64,000 nucleotides of DNA. Source: Nonomuraea thailandensis. GTDB lineage: Bacteria > Actinomycetota > Actinomycetes > Streptosporangiales > Streptosporangiaceae. The position numbers and the translations under genes were made by a program. How positions within the stretch are numbered: position 1 is the stretch's first letter; each line of letters begins with the position of its first letter. Below are positions 9,878 through 28,958 of the stretch, piece by piece. The notes below the pieces were generated by a model. The model saw only the letters and a program-made list of their open reading frames with translations. It made no database searches and was not told where the DNA came from. The DNA is taken from the NCBI RefSeq assembly GCF_024172165.1, contig NZ_JAMZEB010000002.1, positions 9,584,501 through 9,648,500 on the forward strand, in the 5' to 3' direction.

Positions 9878-10869
9878 ACGTCAGGAGCTTCGACGCGCTC
9901 ACCGTGGGCGAGCTGGACACCTGGGAGGAGCTGCGGGCCGGCAACCCGGCGCTCGACAGCCCGTACTTCCATCCCGGCTTCTCCGCGGCCGTGCACGCCG
10001 CCGGGCGTACCGTGCACGTGGCCGTGGGCGACGGCGTGTTCGTGCCGCACCACAGGGACGGGCGGCTGCTGCGGCCGGTCGGCTGGCCCGGCGCCGACTT
10101 CCAGGGGCCGATCCTGGCCGCGGGCGCCCCGTTCCGGCCGCTGGACCTGCTGGGGAACGGCGCGGGCGGCTACGCGTTCGACCATCTGATCGAGCAGGCG
10201 CCCGGGTTCGAGCGGTGGGTGGTCACGCGCAGGCCGTCGCCGTACCTGGACGTCAGCGGCGGGCTGGACGGCTATCTGGGGCGCGCCTCCAAGAGCGGCA
10301 AGGACAACATGGGGCAGGCCAGGCGGCGGCTGGCCAGGGCCGCGCGGGAGCTCGGCGAGGTGCGGTTCGAGGCCGACTCCTGCGACGCGGAGGCGCTGGC
10401 GCGGGTGATCGAGCTCAAGCGCGCCCAGTACGCCGCGACCGGCGCGCAGGACTACTTCGCCGAGCCGGAGCGCGTGCGGCTGCTGGAGAGCCTGCTGAAG
10501 ACCCGCGACCCGGGCTTCGGCGGCGTGCTGTCCACCGTGCACGCGGGGCCGCGGCTGCTGGCGGCGCACTTCGGGCTGCGGTCCGGCGGGGTGCTGCACT
10601 GGTGGTTCCCGGTCTACGACCCGGAGCTGGCCAAGCTCTCTCCCGGCTGGATCCTGCTGCGCGAGCTGGTCGCCGCCGCCCCGGCGCTCGGGGTCTCCAG
10701 GATCGACCTGGGCCGGGGCGAGGACGAGTACAAGCGGCGGGCCAAGACGGGCGAGAGCGTGGTGTGCCAGGGGATCGTGACCCGCAACCCGCTGCGCCGG
10801 GCCGCGGTGACGGCCCTCGCCCGGGCCAGGGAGATGGCAAGGAACGGACGTTTACCGAGAAGTCGGTAA
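9874..10869 (+). CDS. FemAB/BioF2-like GNAT acyltransferase
   Basis: A 331-residue protein with two GNAT-like lobes. It resembles the CelD/BioF2-like acetyltransferase and FemAB groups that often sit in exopolysaccharide clusters. Supporting stretches are SPYFHPGFSAAV near the N-terminus, a basic helix (KDNMGQARRRLARAA) around 145-160, and a C-terminal PGWILLRELV then DLGRGEDEYKRR. It probably adds an acyl or aminoacyl group to a sugar or lipid intermediate. It starts with ATGA overlap on the glycosyltransferase and ends the first co-directional run; about 100 bp separate it from the dehydrogenase gene. Confidence 0.7.
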   Translation: MNVRSFDALTVGELDTWEELRAGNPALDSPYFHPGFSAAVHAAGRTVHVAVGDGVFVPHHRDGRLLRPVGWPGADFQGPILAAGAPFRPLDLLGNGAGGYAFDHLIEQAPGFERWVVTRRPSPYLDVSGGLDGYLGRASKSGKDNMGQARRRLARAARELGEVRFEADSCDAEALARVIELKRAQYAATGAQDYFAEPERVRLLESLLKTRDPGFGGVLSTVHAGPRLLAAHFGLRSGGVLHWWFPVYDPELAKLSPGWILLRELVAAAPALGVSRIDLGRGEDEYKRRAKTGESVVCQGIVTRNPLRRAAVTALARAREMARNGRLPRSR

Positions 10870-10972
10870 CGTTCCAATACGCATGCCCGACATATCCCTT
10901 GGAGGCGGGGGGAATCACGCGCTGCCCTCCAAAGACGGTCCACGTTAGACGGTCCAACACGGAGGGCGGCTC

Positions 10973-12280
10973 ATGCGGATCAGTGTCTTCGGGCTCGGTT
11001 ACGTGGGGTGCGTCTCGGCGGCCTGCCTGGCCTCCATGGGGCATCAGGTGACCGGCGTGGACGTGAATCCGGACAAGGTCGATCTGATCAACAACGGGCA
11101 GGCGACGATCGTCGAGGAGCGCATCGGCGAGCTGATCGCGAGAACGACCGCCGACGGCCTGTTGCGGGCCACCACCGACGCGGCCGAGGCGGTCGCGGGC
11201 AGCGAGGTGTCGCTGGTCTGCGTGGGCACCCCGTCGGCGCCGAACGGCAGCCTGTCCACGACGTACCTGGAGCGGGTGGCCGAGCAGATCGGCCGGGCGC
11301 TGCGGCCCGGGCACGTGGTGGTCTTCCGCAGCACGATGTTGCCCGGCACCTGCGCCGAGCTGCTGGTGCCGATCCTGGAGCTGTCGTCGGGCATGCGGGC
11401 GGGGGTGGACTTCGGGGTGGCGGTCAACCCCGAGTTCCTGCGCGAGGGCACGAGTGTGCGCGACTTCTTCGCGCCGCCCAAGACGGTGATCGGCGAGTCG
11501 GACGAGACCTCGGGGAGCGTGGTGGCCGGCCTGTACGAGGGCCTGCCCGGCGAGGTCTTCCGGGTGCCCATCCCGGTAGCCGAAATGACGAAATATGCGG
11601 ACAACGCCTTTCATGCCATGAAGATCGGCTTCGCCAACGAGATCGGCGCCATCTGCCAGGCCATGGGGCTCGACTCGCACCGCGTCATGGACGTCTTCCT
11701 GGCCGACCGCAAGCTCAACATCAGCCCGGCCTACCTGCGGCCCGGCTTCGCCTTCGGCGGCTCCTGCCTGCCCAAGGACCTGCGCGGCCTGGTCTACGCG
11801 GCCAGGAAGGCCGACGTGTCCGTCCCGCTGCTGTCGCACGTGCTGCCCGCCAACGACGCCCACCTGCAGCGCGCCTTCGACCTGGTCACCGCGCCGGGCA
11901 GGCGCCGGATCGGCGTCTTCGGCCTGTCGTTCAAGCCCGGCACCGACGACCTGCGCGAGAGCCCGCTGGTCGAGCTGGCGGAACGGCTCCTCGGCAAGGG
12001 CTACGACCTGCGCATCTACGACGCCAACGTGTCCCTGTCGCGCCTCGTCGGCGCCAACAGGGCCTACATCGCCGAGCGCCTGCCCCACCTGGGCGACCTG
12101 CTCGCCGACTCGGTGGAGGAGGTGCTGGAGCACGCCGAGGTGTGCGTGGTCGGGTGCAAGGACGCGCCGGTGCTGGAGGCGCTGGCCCGCGCGGGCGACC
12201 GCGTGATCGTCGACCTCGTACGCCTTCCCGACGCGGAAACCCACCGGGGCAGAAGGGACTACACAGGCATTGGCTGGTAG
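10973..12280 (+). CDS. UDP-glucose/GDP-mannose 6-dehydrogenase family protein
   Basis: A 435-residue enzyme. The N-terminal NAD domain begins FGLGYVGCVSA. A central NPEFLREGTSVRDFFAPPK region follows, then the catalytic cysteine in GGSCLPKD (Cys265) and a C-terminal domain with GLSFKPGTDDLRESP. It oxidises the C6 alcohol of a nucleotide sugar twice to the uronic acid. The REGTSVRDF and FAPPKTVIG stretches are closer to GDP-mannose dehydrogenases (AlgD type) than to classical UDP-glucose dehydrogenases, but the substrate is uncertain. The product would add an acidic residue to the polymer. It overlaps the next gene's TTG start by 11 bp. Confidence 0.88.
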   Translation: MRISVFGLGYVGCVSAACLASMGHQVTGVDVNPDKVDLINNGQATIVEERIGELIARTTADGLLRATTDAAEAVAGSEVSLVCVGTPSAPNGSLSTTYLERVAEQIGRALRPGHVVVFRSTMLPGTCAELLVPILELSSGMRAGVDFGVAVNPEFLREGTSVRDFFAPPKTVIGESDETSGSVVAGLYEGLPGEVFRVPIPVAEMTKYADNAFHAMKIGFANEIGAICQAMGLDSHRVMDVFLADRKLNISPAYLRPGFAFGGSCLPKDLRGLVYAARKADVSVPLLSHVLPANDAHLQRAFDLVTAPGRRRIGVFGLSFKPGTDDLRESPLVELAERLLGKGYDLRIYDANVSLSRLVGANRAYIAERLPHLGDLLADSVEEVLEHAEVCVVGCKDAPVLEALARAGDRVIVDLVRLPDAETHRGRRDYTGIGW

Positions 12281-17869: not shown

Positions 17870-17922
17870 GCGCCCTCCCTCGCGAGTCCCGCCTCATACA
17901 TGTCGCCCGGTTGGTGTGGAGC

Positions 17923-17942
17923 GTTACACAAAACCCTGTAAC
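17923..17942. promoter_or_regulatory. Perfect inverted repeat between divergent Wzz and glycosyltransferase genes
   Basis: GTTACA, 8 bp, TGTAAC forms a perfect palindrome in the 142-bp divergent region between the genes starting at 17869 and 18012. It could be an operator for either direction. A related GTTACACCAAACC occurs at 20788, upstream of the second Wzz gene but at the end of a coding sequence. The protein that binds is unknown. Confidence 0.35.
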
Positions 17943-18011
17943 ACCACCCATTACGGGGCGATATGGAGTACGAGGGGCGTCACTCCCGGCGGGGGACGGA
18001 GATCAGTTTTC

Positions 18012-18896
18012 ATGAGCGCACTGGCCGTGGTCACGCCCACGTACGCCCCTGACGCCGAGCTCTTCGCCCACCTGCACCGATCCGTGCTCGCGCACACCTC
18101 CGACGACACGGTGCACCACGTGGTCGTGCCCGACTCCGACCGCCGCCTGTTCTCCCGGTACGCCGGGCCCCGCTGCAGGATCTGGACCTACGCCGAGATC
18201 CTGCCCCGCCGGATCGTCCGGGTGCCGCTGGCCGGCGTGTGGATCGATCCCGGACGGCCGTGGCCGCCGCTGCGCGGCTGGGTGGCGCAGCAGGCCGTGA
18301 AGGTGGCGGTGACGGCGCGGCTCGACGCGAAGGTGGTGCTGGTCGCCGACTCCGACGTGGTCCTGGTCCGCCAGGCCACGCCCGACCTGTTCATCCAGGA
18401 CGGTCAGGTCTGCATGTTCCGGATGGACGGCGGCGTGCACGAGCTCATGACCGACCACGTCACCTGGCACCGGGTGGCCCGCGAGCTGCTGGGCCTGCCG
18501 GGGCCCGCGCCGCTGCCCCTGCCGGACTACGTCAGCTCGCTGGCGTGCTGGGATCCGGCCGTCGTGCGCGAGATGCAGCGGCGGATCACCGAGTCGACGG
18601 GGCGTGACTGGCTGTCCGCCTTCATCTCGCACCTGCGGGTCTCGGAGTTCATCGTCTACGGCGTGTTCGTGGACGAGGTGCTCGGGGCCGCGCCTCCGGT
18701 CAACACCGCGATCTGCCACAGCCGGTGGGATCGCACCCCTCTCGACCCTGCCGGAGCCATCGCCTTCGCCGACCTGCTACCTCACGACGCGGTGGGAATG
18801 ATGATCTCGGCCAAGTCGGGGACGCCCATGGCGGCCAGGATGGCGGCGATCGAGCGATGCTCCCAGATCACCGGACCCGACGGGAGTCATCCGTGA
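18012..18896 (+). CDS. Putative glycosyltransferase, DUF6492-like (first of a tandem pair)
   Basis: A 294-residue protein: LAVVTPTYAPDAELFAHLHRS at the start, a likely metal site VADSDVVLV (DxD) near residue 112, then PLPDYVSSLACWDP and SEFIVYGVFVDEVLG. It matches the pattern I associate with DUF6492 proteins, which look like GT-A glycosyltransferases without an assigned activity. The ATG at 18012 is chosen because the fold begins there; an upstream in-frame ATG adds unrelated residues. The stop overlaps the next gene by 4 bp (GTGA). The two proteins are clear paralogues. Confidence 0.65.
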   Translation: MSALAVVTPTYAPDAELFAHLHRSVLAHTSDDTVHHVVVPDSDRRLFSRYAGPRCRIWTYAEILPRRIVRVPLAGVWIDPGRPWPPLRGWVAQQAVKVAVTARLDAKVVLVADSDVVLVRQATPDLFIQDGQVCMFRMDGGVHELMTDHVTWHRVARELLGLPGPAPLPLPDYVSSLACWDPAVVREMQRRITESTGRDWLSAFISHLRVSEFIVYGVFVDEVLGAAPPVNTAICHSRWDRTPLDPAGAIAFADLLPHDAVGMMISAKSGTPMAARMAAIERCSQITGPDGSHP

Positions 18897-19765
18897 GCAA
18901 GCTGGCGGTCATCACGCCTTCCTACGCCCTGGACGCCGAGCTGTTCGCCGACCTGCACAGATCAGTGCTCGAATACACCTCAGAGGACACCATCCACCAC
19001 GTCTTCGTGCCGCCCGGCGACCGCGACGCGTTCGCCGGGTTCGAGGGGCCCCGCTGCCACGTGTGGGTGCGCTCGGAGCTGCTGCCGCGCAGGTACCTGC
19101 GCATGCCGGGCGCCGACGTGTACGTCAACTACCGCCGCCCGTGGCCGCCGCTGCGCGGCTGGGTGATGCAGCAGACCGTCAAGATCGCCTCGGCGGGCCT
19201 GATCGACGCCGACGCCATGCTCATCGTGGACTCCGACGCCGTCCTGGTCCGCCCGACCAGCGCCGAGTCCTTCACCAGGGACGGGCGGCTGTGCCTGTAC
19301 CGGCTGGAGAACGGCGTGACGGCCGAGATGAAGCGGCACGTCATCTGGCACCAGGTGGCCCGCGAGTTGCTCGGCCTGCCTCCGGCGCCGCCACCGCCGC
19401 TGCCCGACTACGTGACGGCGCTGACGTTCTGGGACCCCGAGATCGTGCGGGCGATGCAGCGGCGGATCACCCAGGTGACCGGCCGCGACTGGCTCGACGC
19501 GTTCAACGCGCAGCTGCACGTCTCGGAGTTCATCCTGTACGGCGTCTTCGTGGACGAGGTGCTGAAGACCGACCCGCCGATCAACACCACGATCTGCCAC
19601 CTGAGCTACAACCACGAGCCGTGGGACGAGGCCCAGGCCGTCGCCTTCGCCGACCGGCTGCCGCCGGAGGCGGTCGGGATGATGATCTCGGCCAAGTCGC
19701 ACACCCCGATGGAGGCCAGGCAGGCCGCCATCAGGAGGTGCGCTCAGGTCGTCGAGTCGAGCTGA
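18893..19765 (+). CDS. Putative glycosyltransferase, DUF6492-like (second of the pair)
   Basis: A 290-residue paralogue of the preceding protein, collinear throughout: LAVITPSYALDAELFADLHRS, metal site IVDSDAVLV, LPDYVTALTFWDPEIVRAMQRRIT and SEFILYGVFVDEVL. It starts with GTG overlapping the previous stop. The conserved DSD motif in both copies suggests that both are active, perhaps adding successive or alternative sugars. Its last 22 bp overlap the 3' end of the opposing Wzz gene. Confidence 0.65.
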   Translation: MSKLAVITPSYALDAELFADLHRSVLEYTSEDTIHHVFVPPGDRDAFAGFEGPRCHVWVRSELLPRRYLRMPGADVYVNYRRPWPPLRGWVMQQTVKIASAGLIDADAMLIVDSDAVLVRPTSAESFTRDGRLCLYRLENGVTAEMKRHVIWHQVARELLGLPPAPPPPLPDYVTALTFWDPEIVRAMQRRITQVTGRDWLDAFNAQLHVSEFILYGVFVDEVLKTDPPINTTICHLSYNHEPWDEAQAVAFADRLPPEAVGMMISAKSHTPMEARQAAIRRCAQVVESS

Positions 19766-20788: not shown

Positions 20789-21661
20789 TTACACCAAACC
20801 GACCAGAGATAGCAGTTTGCGGCCGCGGTGCGCGAGCGTGCGCCGCTGCCGCCGCGCGTACATGCGCATCACCTCGGAGCGCGCCCGCCGCCGCTGCTCC
20901 TCGGTCAGCTCCGCGTCGCGCACCCATCTCAGCAGCTCCCTGCACTGCAGCGTGTTGGCCAGGTGGGACTGCCAGGACGGCACGTCCAGGCGCCGGGCGA
21001 TGCGGCCGATCCGCTCCAGCCGCCAGTTGCGGTGCGAGAGCACCGCGGGGACGTGCGCCCACGGCCCCGACAGCGCCAGCTTGGCCGCGAACACCTCGTC
21101 CTCGCGCAGCATGTTGCGCCGCGGGATGCCGACGGCGGCCTCGCGCCGCAGCAACCCGTAGAGCGGGTCGATGAGGTACGGGCTCTCGTTGAGCAGCCTG
21201 AGCATCTCGGCGAAGCGCTCCACCGGATCGTCGGAGCCGAGCCGGGTGCCGGTGTAGGGCACCGTCACCTCCCCGTCGGGTCCTGTGTAGGAGACCTGGT
21301 TGGTGACGAGGATCAGCCGCTCGTCCGCGGCGAAGACGGCCAGGGCCGCCGAGACGCAGTCGGGCTCCAGCCGGTCGTCGTCACCGATCCAGCGCACGTA
21401 CGCGCCCTTGGAGATGCGGGCCGCGTGCATGAAGTTGCCGAGCAGGCCGACGTTCTGCGGGTGCCGGTGGTAGACGATCCTGGGATCGGCCGCCGCCAGG
21501 TCGCGGCAGAGCTCCTCGGTGCCGTCCGTGGAGGCGTTGTCGGAGATGACCAGCTCGATGCGCGGATGGTCCTGCGCCAGCACCGAGCGGACCACGGCCT
21601 CCAGGCGGCCGGCCCCGTTGCGCACCGGCAGCGCGATCGATACGAGGTCAGATTCGTGCAT
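20789..21661 (-). CDS. Family 2 glycosyltransferase
   Basis: A 290-residue GT-A enzyme: VSIALPVRNGAGRLEAVVRSVL, VISDNASTDGTEELC, YHRHPQNVGLLGNF and RWIGDDDRL (DDD metal site). The C-terminal half is Arg-rich (EEQRRRARSEVMRMYARRQRR) and likely lies on the membrane surface. It starts with ATG at 21661 and overlaps the end of the flippase gene by 14 bp, so it is the last gene of the long coupled operon 28958-20789. It probably adds a sugar made by that operon. Confidence 0.85.
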   Translation of the reverse strand: MHESDLVSIALPVRNGAGRLEAVVRSVLAQDHPRIELVISDNASTDGTEELCRDLAAADPRIVYHRHPQNVGLLGNFMHAARISKGAYVRWIGDDDRLEPDCVSAALAVFAADERLILVTNQVSYTGPDGEVTVPYTGTRLGSDDPVERFAEMLRLLNESPYLIDPLYGLLRREAAVGIPRRNMLREDEVFAAKLALSGPWAHVPAVLSHRNWRLERIGRIARRLDVPSWQSHLANTLQCRELLRWVRDAELTEEQRRRARSEVMRMYARRQRRTLAHRGRKLLSLVGLV

Positions 21662-23096
21662 GCGCCCTCCCTTGGCGTACGAGCCGCTTGAGCACCGCGC
21701 GCGGCACCACGACCAGCACGAACAGCAGCAACCCCGCGCCTCCGGCCACGCAGAGCTCGAAGAAGGCGCCGTCGATCACCGTGGCCAGCGCCACCATGAC
21801 CACGCCGGCCGCCGCCGCGCCCAGCAGCGGCCTGGCCAGCCCGGCGCCGACCAGTCCCACCGGCACCCCGGAGCGGTGCAGGGCCACGCCCAGCAGCGGC
21901 AGCGCCACCACCACGGCGACGACCGCGTGCGCCACGGCCGCGCCCTCGATGCCGTCGAGACGGGCGCCCACCAGCAGCGCGGGCACCAGCGCGACGGCCC
22001 AGCACAGGTTCACCCACATGGTCGCCTTCGTCCGGCCGAGCGCGGCCAGGATGTCGGTGATGAGCAGCGTCAGCATGCGCACGGCCATCACCACGGCCAG
22101 GAAACGCAGCACCTGGGCGGCGGGCAGCCAGTTCGTGCCGTACAGGAACTCCACGACGGCGGGGGCCAGCGTGCCCATCAGCACCGCGATCGGCAGCACC
22201 ATGCCCGCCAGCAGCGGGACGGACTGCCGCACGCCCTCCCGCACGGCCTCGGTCCCCTCCTCCACCAGGCGCGAGAAGCTGGGCAGCGCGACGTACCGGA
22301 TGGCGGTCCCGATCAGGCCAGGCACCCAGCTGGAGATGTTGAAGGCGAGCAGGTAGAAGCCCAGCCAGGCCGGGCCGAGCACGTCGCCGACGATGACCGA
22401 GTCCACGTTGAGCAGCAGGCCCTCGATGCCGAGACTGACGCACAGCGGCAGCCCGAACCGCAGCAGCCGCGCGGCCTGCGCACGGTCGAAGCCGAGCTCG
22501 ATCTTCACGCGCGCCAGCGCGACCACCAGCACGCCGGTGAGCACGCCACCGCTGAGCTGCCCCCAGGCGAAGCTGTAGGCCCCGGCGCCGTTCGCGGCCA
22601 GCGTGATGGAGACGCCGGCGTTGGCGACGAACCCCGCCAGGTTGGCCAGGGCCAGCTTGTCCTGCTCGAACCGGCGCATGAGCGCGGCGCTGCGCACCGC
22701 TGTCAGCCCGTAGACGAGGTTGGTGGCCATGAGGATACGGATCACCCAGATGGCGTCCTCGCTCCCGGCCAGCCGCGCGTAGAACGGCGCGATCACCCAG
22801 AACAGCGCGTAGAGGGCGAAGCTCGACAGGATCGCCACGACCGTGGCCGTGGGCGCGATCTCCTCCAGCCTGCCCCGCCACTGCACGGTCGCCGCGATCA
22901 CGCCGGCGTCGTTGATGTAGATGACGAACTGGGTGGCAGCCAGCGCGATCGCGAACACGCCGAAGTCCTCGGGCACCAGCAACCTGGCCAGGACGAGGCT
23001 CATCACGAACGAGCCCGCCTTCATCACCAGGTTGCCCAGCAGGCTCCAGCGCAGCCCGCGACCGGCCTTGCGGCCGATGTCGCCGACCTCACTCAC
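21648..23096 (-). CDS. Wzx-type polysaccharide flippase (MOP superfamily)
   Basis: A 482-residue protein with about 12-14 hydrophobic segments. Near the N-terminus it has RGLRWSLLGNLVMKAGSF and LARLLVPEDFGVFAIALA, the classical opening of the polysaccharide transporter family. FSRLVEEGTEAVREGVRQS and YGTNWLPAAQVLRFLA are typical later motifs. It moves undecaprenyl-linked repeat units across the membrane. The start is GTG at 23096, overlapping the stop of the cysteine-domain gene (GTGA). Confidence 0.88.
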   Translation of the reverse strand: MSEVGDIGRKAGRGLRWSLLGNLVMKAGSFVMSLVLARLLVPEDFGVFAIALAATQFVIYINDAGVIAATVQWRGRLEEIAPTATVVAILSSFALYALFWVIAPFYARLAGSEDAIWVIRILMATNLVYGLTAVRSAALMRRFEQDKLALANLAGFVANAGVSITLAANGAGAYSFAWGQLSGGVLTGVLVVALARVKIELGFDRAQAARLLRFGLPLCVSLGIEGLLLNVDSVIVGDVLGPAWLGFYLLAFNISSWVPGLIGTAIRYVALPSFSRLVEEGTEAVREGVRQSVPLLAGMVLPIAVLMGTLAPAVVEFLYGTNWLPAAQVLRFLAVVMAVRMLTLLITDILAALGRTKATMWVNLCWAVALVPALLVGARLDGIEGAAVAHAVVAVVVALPLLGVALHRSGVPVGLVGAGLARPLLGAAAAGVVMVALATVIDGAFFELCVAGGAGLLLFVLVVVPRAVLKRLVRQGRAHARI

Positions 23097-24046
23097 GAAG
23101 TCTCGACCCTCTCCAGCCAGATCTCCCGCCAGAACGGCACGAACTCGCGCGGGCAGTTGGCGTTGTAGACGCCCTCGCAGACGAGATCGTCGAGGATGAT
23201 GCACGGGCTCTTCATGGTCAGCATCCGGCCGGTCTTCTCGTCCAGGCAGCGCTCGACCCTGGCCCGTACGCGCGCGGTCCTGCCGCAGTAGCGGGCCATC
23301 TCCTCCTCGAAGCCCATCCCGCGGTTGAGCAGGTCGTCGTTGAGCGTGTCGAGGATCTCCTGCTTGGACCTGATCCTGACCAGCTCGCCCACCTTCAGGT
23401 CCAGCGTGGCCGTCGGCGTCTTCTTCCCGGCCCGGCCCTCGATGAAGCCCCAGCGCAGCCCCCGCCTGATCCACAGGCGGCGCGGCAGCACCTTCTTGCT
23501 GAGGTCCTGGAAGCGGTTGAACAGCCCGACCAGGAAGGTGCGGACGGTCCGGCCGACGCCCACGTTGCCGCTGCGCACGTCGGTGACGTACTGGCCGAGG
23601 TCGCGGAACGGCAGGCAGGCGGGCGCGGCCCGCAGCAGCTCGGTGGCCTGGCAGGAGTAGCCGTCCGGGCCCTTGCGCGTGTTGGCGTCGAGCAGCTTCA
23701 GCAGCCGCTCCTCCGGGATCTGGCGAGCCACGGGCTCGTCCGGATCGACCCGTTTGAGCCACGCCTCCTTCCAGTAGAGCGAGCAGGCCGTCTGGCAGCC
23801 GCCGTGCCCGCCGCCGTCACACCGCGCGCCGGTCAGGTGCACCGCGCTGTCCATGCGCCGCATGCCGCTGCGGCTGATGGTGTCGCACAGCTTGTGCGCG
23901 ACCTTGTGCACGGTCATCCGCCGCCCGCAGTAGGCCAGCATCTCCGGCATGAACGGCAGGTTCTCCAGCTCGCCCCGCTCGTCCAGCGTGGCCAGGATCT
24001 CCGCCGCGCTCCGCACTTCGACGAGGTCCCCCACCCGCAGGTTCAT
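23093..24046 (-). CDS. Unrecognised protein with two copies of a four-cysteine domain
   Basis: A 317-residue soluble protein that I do not recognise. Residues 4-100 and 218-314 are two copies of one domain. Each copy starts VG(D/E)LV.(V/I)RS..EIL.TL and continues EM..YCGR. It ends C-x7-C-x7-W(K/R)E.WL.RV. Copy 1 uses Cys40, Cys54, Cys76, Cys84 and Trp92; copy 2 uses Cys254, Cys267, Cys290, Cys298 and Trp306. The spacing from the first to the third cysteine is 35 residues in both. This suggests a metal- or cluster-binding unit with an SH3-like opening. The linker holds Cys132 and Cys144. It starts with ATG overlapping the DUF4910 gene stop and its own stop overlaps the flippase start. A role in making or handing over the unusual sugar is inferred from this position only. 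Confidence 0.6.
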   Translation of the reverse strand: MNLRVGDLVEVRSAAEILATLDERGELENLPFMPEMLAYCGRRMTVHKVAHKLCDTISRSGMRRMDSAVHLTGARCDGGGHGGCQTACSLYWKEAWLKRVDPDEPVARQIPEERLLKLLDANTRKGPDGYSCQATELLRAAPACLPFRDLGQYVTDVRSGNVGVGRTVRTFLVGLFNRFQDLSKKVLPRRLWIRRGLRWGFIEGRAGKKTPTATLDLKVGELVRIRSKQEILDTLNDDLLNRGMGFEEEMARYCGRTARVRARVERCLDEKTGRMLTMKSPCIILDDLVCEGVYNANCPREFVPFWREIWLERVETS

Positions 24047-25314
24047 GCGCCCTCCCCCACCCGTTTGAGCAGGCCCGCACCCTCCAGAGCGGCGGCCGCC
24101 TCGGCGACCGCGCCGAAGGGCAGGCCTGAGCGGCCGGCGACGTCCAGCAGGCTGTGCTCGCCGTCCGACAGGTTCAACACCCATAACATCGCCAGCTGCG
24201 CCTGTTTCGTGTCACTGCGTCCGCCGAGAGATCCGTACAGGCCGCGCCTGCCGAGCTGCGGCTCGCCGTACGGGCTCAGGTTCTGGTATCGGCCGTCGTG
24301 CTCCAGCACCTCGACCGCCGACCACAACGTCTCCAGCGTGTCGGCCATGGCCTGCGGCGAGACGAAGCCCGGGTCGTCCCCCGAGGTGTGGTACTCGGGG
24401 TATCCGGCGTACGGCGTCCTGGTCAGGCTGCCGACCGGCAGGTCGAAGCCGGGCGAGCAGTACTGCCGCTCGTCGTAGCCGTACGGCGAGAAGTCCACGA
24501 TCGTGTGCGGCCGGTCGCGCAGCACGGCCGCCATCACCCGGTCGACGGGCGCGTCGCCGCGCCTGCTGCGCTTGTACGTCAGCGCCCCCCGGTCACCGGC
24601 GCAGGCGAGCGTCAGCCCGTGCCTGATGCGCCCGGTGCTCTCCCGGTTGCGCGCCAGCCAGGTGATCGCGCCGATCGTGCCGGGCGCGAACACGAACCGG
24701 TAGGTGAGACGCGGCTCCCTGAGCCTGCGGGCCAGCGCCGTGGCCACCGCGATCCCGGCCAGGTTGTCGTTGGCCAGCGACGGATGGCAGACGTGGCAGG
24801 AGATCAGCACCTCGTCGTCGGTGCGCCCCGGCACGACGTGCTCGGCGTAGGTCAGGTGCCCGTCGGCCAGCGTCGAGTCGATCACCACCTCGTACGGCCC
24901 CTCGCCCATCCCGTCGAGCGTGTCCTGGCTCAGGCAGAACCCCCACGTCGGCGCGTAGTACGAGGTCCGGTAGGGCACCAGGTCCGGCCGGCCGGGCAGC
25001 GTGTGCAGGTGGGGCCGCAGCTCGGCCAGGGTCATGGTGGCCGACACCGGCACGCTGTAGCCCACGACGTGCAGGTTCGACCGCTGGAAGTCCACCACCC
25101 GGTTCCCCGCCGGATCCTTGATGTAGGCGTCGCGGATGTTCCACTCCTGCGGGATCGTCCAGTCGAGCACCTGGGTCCCGGTCGGCACCTCGTGCACGTC
25201 CAGCTCCAGCAGCTCCCCGACGATCCCCAGCGTGGCGCGCACGCCGTCGCCCGTGATGGAGCGGCACAGCGGGTAGAGCCGCTCCACCAGGGCGTGCATC
25301 TCCTCCCCGGTCAC
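24043..25314 (-). CDS. DUF4910/M28-like aminopeptidase-fold protein with C-terminal winged helix
   Basis: A 423-residue protein of the DUF4910 type, a zinc-aminopeptidase fold found in polysaccharide and secondary-metabolite clusters. Visible markers are LCRSITGDGVRATL, WNIRDAYIKD, APTWGFCLSQDTLD, the metal-site stretch SCHVCHPSLANDNLAG, and PGFDLPVGSLTRTPYAGYPEYHTSGDD. The last 55 residues look like a winged helix. Family members have unknown substrates; in clusters like this they probably act on a sugar or amide intermediate and not on protein. The start is GTG at 25314, overlapping the epimerase stop (GTGA). An ATG at 25299 is the alternative. Confidence 0.75.
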   Translation of the reverse strand: MTGEEMHALVERLYPLCRSITGDGVRATLGIVGELLELDVHEVPTGTQVLDWTIPQEWNIRDAYIKDPAGNRVVDFQRSNLHVVGYSVPVSATMTLAELRPHLHTLPGRPDLVPYRTSYYAPTWGFCLSQDTLDGMGEGPYEVVIDSTLADGHLTYAEHVVPGRTDDEVLISCHVCHPSLANDNLAGIAVATALARRLREPRLTYRFVFAPGTIGAITWLARNRESTGRIRHGLTLACAGDRGALTYKRSRRGDAPVDRVMAAVLRDRPHTIVDFSPYGYDERQYCSPGFDLPVGSLTRTPYAGYPEYHTSGDDPGFVSPQAMADTLETLWSAVEVLEHDGRYQNLSPYGEPQLGRRGLYGSLGGRSDTKQAQLAMLWVLNLSDGEHSLLDVAGRSGLPFGAVAEAAAALEGAGLLKRVGEGA

Positions 25315-26330
25315 GTGCGCAGCTCCTCGGAGACGGTCCCGGCCTTGCGGCGGTCGGCCAGCCACGCCAGCCGGGTGAACCGCTGGCGGAAGTCCCCGGC
25401 GGTCAGGCCGTGGTAGCGGTAGGCGTCGGCCAGCTCGACGGCGCCCGCCTTCACCGTCCAGCGGGCGTGGTAACCGGGCAGCGCCTCGCGGATCCGCGAG
25501 AACGAGACCCGGTAGGAGCGCGGGTCGGCGCCGGTCTCGCCGGTGATCATCAGCTCGGAGCCGGGCACCGCCTCGACGACGTGCTCGGCGATCTCGGCCA
25601 CGGTCAGGTTGTTCAGCTCGCCGCCCACGTTGAACGCCCTGGCGTGCACGGCCTGGCGCGGCGCGGCCAGCGCGGCCAGGAAGGCGTCGGCGATGTCGGC
25701 CACGTGCACCAGGGGCCGCCACGGGGTGCCGTCCGACAGCACGCGCACCTGCCCGGTCAGGTGGGCGTGGCCGACGAGGTTGTTCAGCACGATGTCGGCG
25801 CGCAGCCGGGGCGAGAACCCGAACGCGGTCGCGTTGCGCAGGAACACCGGGGTGAAGTCGTCGTCGGCCAGGTCGACCAGCTCGTCCTCGACGCGCACCT
25901 TCGACTCGGCGTACGGGGTGACGGGCCGCAGCGGGGCGTCCTCGTCGAGCAGGTCGTCGCCTCCGGAGGCGCCGTAGACCGAGCAGGTGGAGGCGTACAG
26001 GAAGCGGCGCACACCGGCGTCCCTGGCCAGCCTGGCCAGCCGGACGGAGGCGTGGTGGTTGATGTCGTAGGTCAGCTCGGGCGCGAGCGCGCCGAGCGGG
26101 TCGTTGGAGAGCGCGGCCAGGTGGATCACCGCGTCGCAGCCTTCGAGCACGTTCGCGGGCACGTCGCGCAGGTCCACGCGGTGCCCCGGCGGGTCGTCCG
26201 GCACGGGGCCGAGCACGCACTCGGCGAACAGCCCCGAGTCCAGGCCCGTCACCTCGTGGCCGGCCTTGGCGAGCATGGGTGCCATGACCGTGCCGAGATA
26301 GCCCTGGTGCCCCGTGAGTAAGACACGCAT
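25311..26330 (-). CDS. NAD-dependent nucleotide-sugar epimerase/dehydratase
   Basis: A 339-residue extended SDR with LLTGHQGYLGTVMAPML (NAD site), HLAALSNDPLGAL, STCSVYG (catalytic Ser/Thr region), PYAESK (YxxxK) and RNATAFGFSPRLRADIVLNNL. The latter group resembles enzymes paired with C-methyltransferases in branched-sugar pathways. It sits 5 bp after the PIG-L gene, overlaps the DUF4910 gene by 4 bp, and is probably a 4-keto reductase or 4-epimerase of the CDP- or dTDP-sugar made by the same operon. Confidence 0.82.
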   Translation of the reverse strand: MRVLLTGHQGYLGTVMAPMLAKAGHEVTGLDSGLFAECVLGPVPDDPPGHRVDLRDVPANVLEGCDAVIHLAALSNDPLGALAPELTYDINHHASVRLARLARDAGVRRFLYASTCSVYGASGGDDLLDEDAPLRPVTPYAESKVRVEDELVDLADDDFTPVFLRNATAFGFSPRLRADIVLNNLVGHAHLTGQVRVLSDGTPWRPLVHVADIADAFLAALAAPRQAVHARAFNVGGELNNLTVAEIAEHVVEAVPGSELMITGETGADPRSYRVSFSRIREALPGYHARWTVKAGAVELADAYRYHGLTAGDFRQRFTRLAWLADRRKAGTVSEELRT

Positions 26331-26335
26331 GTCGA

Positions 26336-26986
26336 TCAGCCTCCAGCTAGATCTAGAGCGAGTTTGTGCAGGTAGAAGGCCTCCGCGTAGCGTGCGTGAC
26401 ACTCGATGCCGCGGATCCTGGCCAGCCCGAGGAACGCCTCCCTGTCGAACCAGGGGCGGTGGCGCTGGGAGGGGTAGTGCTCCCAGAGCAGGGAGACCTT
26501 GCGCTCGGCCAGCGCGAGGTCGAGCGGCTGGTAGGCGTTGGGCCGGCCGAGGTCGCCGTCCCACTTGAGGATCTCGTAACCGAGCGTGAGGTGGTCGCGG
26601 AACGCGGTGGGCACCAGTCGCGCCAGCCCCCGGTGGTCCTGGTGCGCGTCGCCGGCCTGCGGCGCCAGGATCAGGTCCGGCTCGGTCCGCATCCGCAGCT
26701 CCTCGACCGCGTTCTTGGCCTCGTCCCAGTGGGCGGGGAGCCGGCCGTCGGGCACCTTGGCCACGGTCACGCGCAGGTCGGCGTCCGGGCAGAAGGCGGC
26801 CAGCGCGTTGCGCTCCTCCTCCTCGCGCGCGGTCCCGCCGCCGGAGAGCACCAGGGCGTCCACCTGGATGCCCGGGTGCGCGGTGCACATGACCAGCAGG
26901 GTGCCGCCCGCGCCGATCGCCAGGTCGTCGCAGTGGGCGGCGAGCAGCGCGACGCGGCTCAGGCCGCTGGGGAAGAGCCGGTTCAC
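26336..26986 (-). CDS. PIG-L family deacetylase
   Basis: A 216-residue LmbE/PIG-L protein: VALLAAHCDDLAIGAGGTLL is the AHxDD zinc motif (here AHCDD), and LAPQAGDAHQDHRGLARL is the second metal site (HQDH). The family removes N-acetyl or other acyl groups from sugars such as GlcNAc-inositol. The start is GTG at 26986, overlapping the stop of the cytidylyltransferase gene by 4 bp. Within this operon it could deacetylate an amino-sugar precursor, which would fit the two NodB-type genes elsewhere in the locus. Confidence 0.85.
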   Translation of the reverse strand: MNRLFPSGLSRVALLAAHCDDLAIGAGGTLLVMCTAHPGIQVDALVLSGGGTAREEEERNALAAFCPDADLRVTVAKVPDGRLPAHWDEAKNAVEELRMRTEPDLILAPQAGDAHQDHRGLARLVPTAFRDHLTLGYEILKWDGDLGRPNAYQPLDLALAERKVSLLWEHYPSQRHRPWFDREAFLGLARIRGIECHARYAEAFYLHKLALDLAGG

Positions 26987-27759
26987 GCCCGCTCCCACAG
27001 GGCCCAGGGGCGGTCGCCGCGGGAGTAGGCCCGGTCCAGCTCCATGCGCTGGTTGACGGTGTCGGTGGGCCGCCAGTAGCCGCGGTAGGGGTAGGCCATC
27101 AGCCGCCCGCGTTTGGCCAGCTCCTTGCAGCCGTCCACGAGCAGGTCGCCGTTCTCGGGGATGTGGTCGAAGATCTCCTGACGTAAGACGAAATATCCCC
27201 CGTTCACCCACAGCGGCATCTCGGTGACGGCGGTGATCTGGCCCACCAGCCCGTCCTCGGCGATCTCCACACAGTGGAAGGTCCCCGGCGGCGGCACGGC
27301 CATCAGCGCGCCACCGGCGCCCGACTTCTCCAGCCGCTCGATGATCTCCGGCAGCGGCGCATCCGTGAGCACGTCGGCGTAGTTGGCCAGGAACATCTCG
27401 TCGCCCTGGAGATGGTCGCGCACCCGGCGCAGCCGCTCCCCGATCGACGACTCGACGCCGGTGTGGACGAACGAGATCGTCCAGTCGGAGATGTCGGCTC
27501 CCAGCAGCTCGACGTCGCCGCCGCGCAGCACGAAGTCGTTGGAGGCGGTCTCCTCGTAGCGGAGGAAGAACTCCTTGATCTGCTCGGCCCCGTAGCCGAG
27601 GCAGAGGATGAACTCCTTGTGGCCGAAGTGCGCGTAGTAGCGCATGACGTGCCAGATCAGCGGCCGGGGACCGACAAGCTGCATGGGCTTCGGCGCGTCG
27701 CCGGCGGCGCCCGTACGCATGCGGGTGCCGTAACCCCCGCAGAAGAGCACGACCTTCAC
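26983..27759 (-). CDS. Glucose-1-phosphate cytidylyltransferase-like nucleotidyltransferase
   Basis: A 258-residue RfbF-type enzyme: VVLFCGGYGTRM (nucleotide-binding GGxGTR loop), PKPMQLVGPRPLIWHVMRYY, FILCLGYGAEQIKEFF, FLANYADVLTD and YWRPTDTVNQRMELD. Family members join CTP and glucose-1-phosphate to CDP-glucose, the entry to 3,6-dideoxy and branched sugars. No CDP-glucose 4,6-dehydratase is obvious beside it, so downstream chemistry may go through the epimerase at 25311 or use a different sugar phosphate. The start is GTG at 27759 with GTGA overlap on the methyltransferase stop. Confidence 0.82.
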   Translation of the reverse strand: MKVVLFCGGYGTRMRTGAAGDAPKPMQLVGPRPLIWHVMRYYAHFGHKEFILCLGYGAEQIKEFFLRYEETASNDFVLRGGDVELLGADISDWTISFVHTGVESSIGERLRRVRDHLQGDEMFLANYADVLTDAPLPEIIERLEKSGAGGALMAVPPPGTFHCVEIAEDGLVGQITAVTEMPLWVNGGYFVLRQEIFDHIPENGDLLVDGCKELAKRGRLMAYPYRGYWRPTDTVNQRMELDRAYSRGDRPWALWERA

Positions 27760-28958
27760 ACGACCTCCAGCGTGGGGATGGGGAAGACCAGCCGGCCGCC
27801 CCAGTCGCGGATGTAGGAGAGCTGGTCGATCAGCTCGTCGCGCAGGTTCCACGGCAGGACGAGCACGTAGTCCGGCTTGTCGGCGGCGATGCGCTCCGGC
27901 TCGAAGATCGGGATGCGCGCGCCGGGGGTGAACTTGCCGTGCTTGTACGGGTTGCGATCCACCGTGTACGGCAGCAGGTCGGGCCGGACGCCGCAGTGGT
28001 TGAGCAGCGTGTTGCCCTTGCCGGGAGCCCCGTACCCGACCACCGTGCTGCCCTCCTCGGCAGCGGTGATCAGGAAGCCCAGCAGGTCGCGCCGGACCTT
28101 GGCCACCCGCTCGGTGAAGTCGATGTAGCCGGAGATCTCGTGCAGCCCGGCGGCCTTCTCCATCGCCAGCACGTCCGACACCCGCTGCGACGGGGCGCCC
28201 GACGGCGCGGCCCAGAGCCGGATCGAGCCGCCGTGCGTGGTCAGCAGCTCCACGTCCACCAGCGTCAGCCCGCCGGTGGCCAGGGCCCGCTGGGCGGAGG
28301 CGACGGTGTAGTACTGGAAGTGCTCGTGGTAGATCGTGTCGTACTGGTTGAGCTGCATCAGCGTGAGCAGGTGCTGCACCTCGACCGAGACCAGCCCGTC
28401 GTCGGCGACCAGCGTGCGCAGCCCCTCGGTGAAGCCGATCACGTCGGGGATGTGCGCGTAGACGTTGTTGGCCACCACGTAGTCGGCCTTGCCGTGCTCC
28501 GCCACGACCGCCTGCGCGCTCTCGGGCGTCAGGAACGCCGTCACCGTCGGCACGCCGCGCTCCCTGGCGGCCTGGCCGACGTTCACCGACGGCTCGACGC
28601 CCAGGCAGCGCACCCCGCGCTCCACCACGTGCCGCAGCAGGTAGCCGTCGTTGCTGGCCACCTCCACCACGAACGAGTCCGGCCGCAGGTCGAGGCCCGC
28701 CACGAAGGCGCGGGCGTGCTCCACCCAGGAGGCCGAGTAGGAGGAGAAGTAGGCGTAGTCCGTGAACGTCTCCTCCGGGGTGATCAACGGCGGGATCTGC
28801 GCGAGCCAGCACGACGTGCACACGCGCAGGTGCAGCGGGTAGGTCACCTCGGGCTCGTCGAGCTGGTCGGCCGTGAGGATCCGCTCGCAGGGCGGCGTCG
28901 CCCCCAGGTCCACCACGCCGGTGAGATCGTCCGAGCCGCATAACCGGCAAGTCATCAT
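27756..28958 (-). CDS. SAM-dependent sugar C-methyltransferase
   Basis: A 400-residue protein with the three-part build of sugar C-methyltransferases (NovU/TylC3 type). It has an N-terminal zinc-binding domain (CRLCGSDDL and CTSCWLAQ) and a central SAM domain (VVEVASNDGYLLRHV, GVEPS). The motif YHEHFQYY follows, then a C-terminal domain with GYGAPGKGNTLLNHCG and WNLRDELI. It would place a branching methyl group on a 4-keto nucleotide sugar. The start is ATG at 28958 with a GGAG ribosome site. It is the first gene of the coupled operon that runs down to 20789, and is divergent from the RmlC gene at 29018. Confidence 0.87.
   Translation of the reverse strand: MMTCRLCGSDDLTGVVDLGATPPCERILTADQLDEPEVTYPLHLRVCTSCWLAQIPPLITPEETFTDYAYFSSYSASWVEHARAFVAGLDLRPDSFVVEVASNDGYLLRHVVERGVRCLGVEPSVNVGQAARERGVPTVTAFLTPESAQAVVAEHGKADYVVANNVYAHIPDVIGFTEGLRTLVADDGLVSVEVQHLLTLMQLNQYDTIYHEHFQYYTVASAQRALATGGLTLVDVELLTTHGGSIRLWAAPSGAPSQRVSDVLAMEKAAGLHEISGYIDFTERVAKVRRDLLGFLITAAEEGSTVVGYGAPGKGNTLLNHCGVRPDLLPYTVDRNPYKHGKFTPGARIPIFEPERIAADKPDYVLVLPWNLRDELIDQLSYIRDWGGRLVFPIPTLEVV

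Follow-up and report, generated by a model that had tools for sequence, protein, structure and literature searches.

The 317-residue protein encoded within a polysaccharide operon of Nonomuraea thailandensis is a true internal duplication, and it is a member of a conserved, unnamed family whose fold is not new but varies the known SH3-like repeat. According to the predicted structure, it is made of two SH3-like barrels of the Mind bomb/nitrile-hydratase-beta type with a helical linker between them. Its gene and those around it are listed in Table 1 by their positions in the window, by which we mean the whole 64,000-nucleotide stretch of DNA that was analysed. The stop codon of the DUF4910 gene overlaps the start of the gene by 4 bp (24043-24046), and its own stop overlaps the GTG start of the flippase gene, again by 4 bp (23093-23096), exactly as an earlier note on this DNA had read from the letters. 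Comparison with three close relatives gave a dN/dS of 0.25-0.27. Elsewhere in the window, two adjoining DUF6492 (PF20102) proteins are encoded on the plus strand at 17916-19765, amid minus-strand polysaccharide genes.

Table 1. Positions in the window of the gene for the 317-residue protein, its parts and its neighbours
Feature	Position	Strand	Remarks
317-residue tandem cysteine-rich SH3-like protein	23093..24046	-	ATG at 24046, TGA at 23093
N-terminal SH3-like domain (predicted), residues 1-101	23744..24046	-	Residues 1-104 modelled at pLDDT 86.2; fits 4tse_A
Cysteine segment C40, C54, C76, C84, C88	23783..23929	-	C54, C76, C84 and C88 in 83/83, C40 in 82/83
Linker, residues 102-213	23408..23743	-	C132 (23651-23653), helices, basic stretch 164-213
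C-terminal SH3-like domain (predicted), residues 214-317	23096..23407	-	Fits 4xi7_A
Cysteine segment C254, C290, C298	23153..23287	-	83/83 each; 6/6 divergent sequences
GT2 glycosyltransferase (GT2a)	20789..21661	-	PF00535, 95 bits
Wzx-type flippase	21648..23096	-	PF13440, 190 bits (cut-off 23); 4-bp overlap with the gene for the 317-residue protein
DUF4910/DUF2172/HTH_47 protein	24043..25314	-	PF16254, 362 bits; own start codon inferred
NAD-dependent sugar epimerase/dehydratase	25311..26330	-	PF01370, 161 bits
PIG-L family deacetylase	26336..26986	-	PF02585, 48 bits; start inferred
Nucleotidyltransferase nearest glucose-1-phosphate cytidylyltransferase (CytT)	26983..27759	-	TIGR02623, 179 bits, below cut-off 300; start inferred
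Sugar C-methyltransferase (CMT)	27756..28958	-	PF08484, 209 bits, and PF08421; start inferred

The duplication is apparent both from the protein itself and from its family. BLASTP aligns residues 1-105 with residues 213-317 at 31% identity over 101 residues without a gap (E=2e-16), and a profile-profile comparison of the two halves, built from 81 sequences and shallow (Neff 1.6 and 2.3), gives a probability of 99.3 and E=3.8e-20 over 102 columns. The gapless alignment that the earlier note had described for the last 60 residues is therefore real and wider than was claimed. The same note spoke of a duplicated four-cysteine domain, of which the duplication stands and the count does not, since three cysteines align per half (C40 with C254, C76 with C290 and C84 with C298). 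At least three coincidences of five against five cysteines in 101 columns arise in 0.06% of random placements. A cysteine 13-14 residues further on, proposed as a common feature of the halves, is not aligned, because C54 faces L268 and C267 faces L53, each off by one; C88 belongs to the N-terminal half and has no counterpart in the other.

Eight cysteines (C54, C76, C84, C88, C132, C254, C290 and C298) are kept in all 89 sequences compared, of which 83 comprise the window protein, 80 genome_contigs loci and homologues from Mesorhizobium (L001) and Bosea (L002), and six are divergent actinobacterial sequences (L117, L118, L119, L136, L137 and L138). C40 and C267, to which the earlier note also pointed, are not among these eight and are replaced in some homologues: of the 83 sequences, 82 retain C40, 77 retain C282 and 74 retain C267; the six divergent sequences all have the eight invariant cysteines, with C40 in three and C267 in none; and across the eight distant homologues (these six plus Mesorhizobium and Bosea) C40 is replaced in three and C267 in every one. 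Exact spacing in both copies, likewise claimed, holds for all 81 close relatives (the window protein and 80 loci), in which 36 residues separate C254 from C290 and position 40 from C76 (L071 has valine for C40), but it shifts by a few residues in some distant homologues through small insertions or deletions.

With eight cysteines invariant, binding of a metal or cluster is plausible, and their number would suffice for two four-ligand sites. The set of ligands is uncertain because C40 is lost in L071 and in three of the six divergent sequences, and on account of the latter we dropped C40, C76, C84 and C88 as one firm site. Judging from the strand register of the model, C40 would face C76 across hairpin 43-55/61-75, and C254 would be roughly opposed to C290 across hairpin 257-268/274-285. 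C54 would then mark the tip of its hairpin, and the loops after the hairpins would hold C84, C88 and C298.

The AlphaFold2 model of the whole protein, made from an 81-sequence alignment, has a pLDDT of 91.7 and a pTM of 0.87, and the N-terminal domain (residues 1-104) predicted alone has a pLDDT of 86.2. The structure ranked first by VIA-align for the C-terminal domain is a Mind bomb 1 repeat (4xi7_A, residues 331-400; Z 7.4, rmsd 2.1 Å, 69 residues), and the N-terminal domain fits 4tse_A (Z 8.0, 2.3 Å, 72 residues) and 4xi7_A (Z 7.8, 2.2 Å, 69 residues), although SH3-like barrels are common and models that resemble nothing clearly also typically reach a best Z of 7-8. Both predicted domains have the fold of the MIB1 REP repeat (331-404) at an rmsd of 2.1-2.3 Å, and because they fit this same third structure the two halves probably share one fold, as the earlier note had supposed. 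The lead of Mind bomb is modest, since ribosomal SH3-like proteins come next with Z up to 6.2 and 6.7.

SH3_15 (PF18346, the Mind bomb SH3 repeat) is the best Pfam match of the window protein, and it matches 28 of 81 members (the window protein and 80 loci) at E<=0.1. When 40 of the 80 loci were scanned singly, L071 alone rose above the cut-off (25.9 versus 24 bits), with L080 at 23.6. The match falls on the N-terminal half in some proteins (L044, L109, L053 and L036) and on the C-terminal half in others (the window protein, L067, L054, L055, L059, L080 and L071); among seven distant homologues (L001, L002, L117, L119 and L136-L138) that of Bosea is the one to match (E=0.052). Kinship with SH3_15 at the level of the family is therefore likely, with the window protein itself falling short of formal membership (18.1 bits against the cut-off of 24). 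Like the Mind bomb repeats (MIB1 REP; PDB 4tse, 4xi6 and 4xi7), the family has its SH3-like barrels in tandem, and the likeness extends to the weak, repeated SH3_15 matches on both halves. Unlike Mind bomb, it is bacterial, is encoded mostly in polysaccharide loci, and has invariant cysteines and a long basic linker between the repeats, with no other domain found. In eukaryotes, the SH3 repeats of Mind bomb are described as substrate-recognition domains (PMC11701565).

The claim that the protein belongs to no named family was correct, in that none from Pfam, NCBIfam or PADLOC exceeds its cut-off for the window protein; NCBIfam offers nothing up to E=1, and PADLOC nothing for three homologues either. 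A sequence search of the PDB returned four rows, all at E>1 and attributable to chance, a BFVD fold search gave no row under E 0.001 among the 50 matches listed, and peptide patterns and tblastn found no viral relatives in viral_contigs. In the literature we found nothing that pairs the Mind bomb SH3 repeat with bacterial polysaccharide, a search that proteins printed under a locus tag would escape; the main text of PMC13390465 mentions neither PIG-L nor a hypothetical protein nor Nonomuraea, and no description of the 317-residue protein was found there. Relatives are encoded in 262 stretches of genome_contigs, 80 of which were analysed. Two further profile matches, in genomes G156 and G555 (E 0.005-0.006), were rejected as chance, tblastn giving nothing under E 3 in the first and nothing at 1e-5 in the second.

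Between the barrels, the linker contains C132, which is found in 83/83 and 6/6 divergent sequences, three modelled helices (113-122, 150-158 and 164-186) and a basic stretch (residues 164-213) with a net charge of +11 in the window protein; across 81 proteins its charge ranges from +2 to +12, with a mean of +7.6. We considered whether the linker crosses the membrane as a helix and do not claim that it does: the average hydropathy maximum of the 81 proteins is 1.17, and the threshold for a membrane span is 1.6. This maximum is centred at 280-299 in 55 of the 81 proteins and at 160-189 in 15, and it exceeds 1.6 in two, within the linker in L103 and outside it in L085; the Mesorhizobium and Bosea homologues have it in the linker, at 1.2 and 1.35. 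No signal sequence was seen by eye, which suggests that the protein is cytoplasmic.

The genomic setting of the family was described by searching for 14 window proteins, among them the 317-residue protein itself, in 82 loci, namely L001, L002 and those of 80 of the 262 relatives; neighbour gene calls in GC-rich loci came from a crude script, which missed the homologue in L064, L100 and L118, where tblastn finds it. The order DUF4910, 317-residue protein, Wzx occurs in 60 loci, the 317-residue protein followed by GT2a in eight, DUF4910, 317-residue protein, GT2a in five, and the 317-residue protein followed by Wzx in four; one locus (L078) ends after DUF4910 and the 317-residue protein, and four have no panel neighbour. 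The next gene downstream is a Wzx or GT2a homologue in 77 loci, and DUF4910 directly precedes the homologue in 66. L001 has another PF13440 flippase downstream of the homologue, with a 4-bp overlap, and in L002 such a flippase is encoded divergently. DUF4910, the 317-residue protein and GT2a stay together in the rearranged loci L102, L105, L106, L107 and L110. Five loci (L068, L069, L074, L079 and L084) have a GT2a match of only 32-35%, on the other strand. In two Crossiella loci (L101 and L104; locus positions 10001-10981) the next gene is folD, with neither Wzx nor GT2a; this folD-like gene is followed there by a malate/lactate dehydrogenase gene, and MFS transporters are encoded upstream.

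Sugar genes were counted at 44% identity and 60% coverage in 81 loci (L002, in which no match passes, was dropped): at least four of the five are present in 67, one to three in four, and none in ten. Those without any are four of the five Rhodococcus loci (L047, L061, L064 and L081, and not L065), Nocardia L089 and L095, Aldersonia L086, the metagenome-assembled contig L091 and the two Crossiella loci. Seven of the ten have full 10-kb flanks, and the absence carries less weight at L047, L091 and L095 because a flank is short. The linkage to DUF4910 and the sugar genes is thus strong but not without exception, and homologues without the sugar genes, which the earlier note had named as evidence against its reading, do exist. 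None of the other 13 panel genes occurs in the flanks of the two Crossiella loci or of L117 and L118, the two copies of genome G217, which lie on two contigs and have about 10 kb around them free of panel genes; some of the genes that flank these copies look duplicated too.

A sample of 394 genomes drawn evenly from the class has 14 that match, counting the window's own and G555 (taken as chance), and DUF4910 adjoins the homologue in nine of the other 12. Of the remaining three, G653 encodes downstream of the homologue an epimerase, a C-methyltransferase, a cytidylyltransferase-like protein and a PIG-L protein; in G035 and G574, Wzy- and Wzx-like genes are not adjacent to it but are no more than 10 kb away. 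The phylum sample has four matching genomes of 396, the window's own and G156 (taken as chance) included; the other two are G217, with the two copies described above, and G230, where the homologue has genes for a flippase, a GT4-type enzyme and a C-methyltransferase nearby. In Mesorhizobium ciceri, the homologue shares a plasmid with relatives of the sugar genes (L001:6944-17594), suggesting that the module has moved between phyla, and homologues occur on three more Mesorhizobium plasmids. L091, a 3.2-kb contig labelled as a Bacteroidetes metagenome-assembled genome, encodes a 66% identical homologue adjoining a GT2a homologue and is likely a mis-binned actinobacterial contig. PqqD-family genes (PF05402) are found upstream in two loci, directly in L137 (8846-9187) and about 8 kb away in L100 (1349-1744), a possible link to peptide-modification genes.

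Co-occurrence was followed in 36 genomes of the window's genus, one of them 63% complete. The 317-residue protein is present in 27 and full-length DUF4910 in 27; 26 have both, eight have neither, G035 has the former alone and G006 the latter alone. GT2 being a large family, a search with GT2a finds something in 58 of 59 genomes, and we therefore counted close matches (E<=1e-90, the next being 2.6e-30), which occur in 25 of the 36 genomes, all 25 with the 317-residue protein; G025 and G035 have the protein without a close GT2a. G006 retains the sugar operon and, at 48%, a homologue of Wzx, but has no 317-residue protein between them and no close GT2a. Outside the genus, G056 has DUF4910 (77%) and sugar genes and lacks the protein, with an unrelated-looking flippase-like frame and another GT2 alongside, and G055 has DUF4910 without it. 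Given these breaks in both directions, the protein is neither required by the sugar module nor confined to it. Over 61 loci, its pairwise divergence correlates best with that of DUF4910 (r 0.75), then Wzx (0.64) and GT2a (0.60), with CMT, CytT, PIG-L and the epimerase at 0.25-0.45; partial correlations are 0.59 for DUF4910, 0.30 for GT2a and 0.22 for Wzx. Chromosomal linkage alone could account for part of these correlations.

We tentatively favour the view, as possible rather than probable, that the 317-residue protein is a cytoplasmic, metal-bound tandem-SH3 protein that acts as a non-catalytic adaptor for Wzx/Wzy-dependent polysaccharide assembly. Its cysteines would most likely hold zinc and, less likely, an iron-sulfur cluster, the basic helical linker that joins the barrels may rest on the inner membrane, and the barrels would keep proteins of the assembly machinery in contact, chiefly the flippase and the GT2 enzyme encoded alongside. 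Favouring such an adaptor are the Wzx or GT2a gene downstream in nearly all loci and the finding that a close GT2a never occurs in the genus without the 317-residue protein. Against it stand the strongest partial correlation, which is with DUF4910 and not with Wzx or GT2a, the Crossiella and G217 copies without panel genes, the G006 operon with its Wzx and no 317-residue protein, and the five loci with a poor GT2a match on the other strand.

Alternatively, the protein may belong to the modified-sugar pathway, where as an auxiliary or catalytic subunit it would act together with the DUF4910 protein on an amino sugar linked to a nucleotide. We regard this as unlikely, though it draws on the divergence correlation with DUF4910, the highest of all, on DUF4910 being so often the gene directly upstream and on the 26 of 36 genus genomes that have both. 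The DUF4910/DUF2172/HTH_47 family (PDB 3k9t) has been proposed to function in the biosynthesis of surface or modified carbohydrates, in a paper whose main text does not contain the term "SH3" (PMC4000134). As a frequent direct neighbour it shares the modified-polysaccharide setting, but it is a different protein family, and each of the two occurs without the other. The loci with no sugar genes or with one to three of them also speak against a pathway subunit, with the reservation that flanks are short at L082, L091, L047 and L095, as do G006 and G056, which have DUF4910 and sugar genes without the protein, and G055, which has DUF4910 without it. Moreover, no enzyme family in Pfam or NCBIfam matches the 317-residue protein.

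It is improbable that the protein regulates the polysaccharide locus, or senses redox state for it, by means of a metal or of thiols. The many invariant cysteines, the basic linker and a fold also seen in ribosomal proteins would suit such a role, but no DNA-binding family matches above its cut-off and the gene is embedded in the operon by 4-bp overlaps in the manner of a pathway gene. Less credible still is a role in the service of a partner enzyme, as a metallochaperone or as an accessory subunit resembling nitrile hydratase beta. Nitrile hydratase beta chains (PDB 3wvd, 3a8m and 2ahj), which have the same type of barrel, head the Foldseek list for the whole model (E=2.8e-4), yet the TM-score is 0.21 over that model, the best such row in VIA-align covers residues 206-314 only, and no hydratase alpha subunit was found among the six window neighbours scanned. 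We can largely dismiss the idea that the protein is a cytoplasmic cysteine-rich substrate glycosylated by the adjacent GT2 enzyme, for although GT2a follows directly in 13 of 82 loci (eight of them without DUF4910 directly upstream), conservation spans the whole of the folded domains and five loci carry the homologue without a close GT2a.

The cytoplasmic tethering of glycosyltransferases and flippases in Wzx/Wzy systems is poorly known. A conserved, cysteine-bearing tandem-SH3 protein whose gene overlaps that of the flippase offers a concrete candidate for a scaffold, and one that is simple to delete. A bolder form of the idea, which we think rather doubtful, is that the protein is a metal-clamped bacterial form of the partner-recognition repeat of the Mind bomb/KEG E3 ligases, a scaffold that couples a glycosyltransferase, the Wzx flippase and a sugar-modifying enzyme and so sets the repeat unit that is exported. 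The family would also extend the Mind bomb-type SH3 repeat to a bacterial setting. Were the protein no more than a minor accessory of structure, what would be gained is an annotation for a family with relatives in 262 stretches of genome_contigs.
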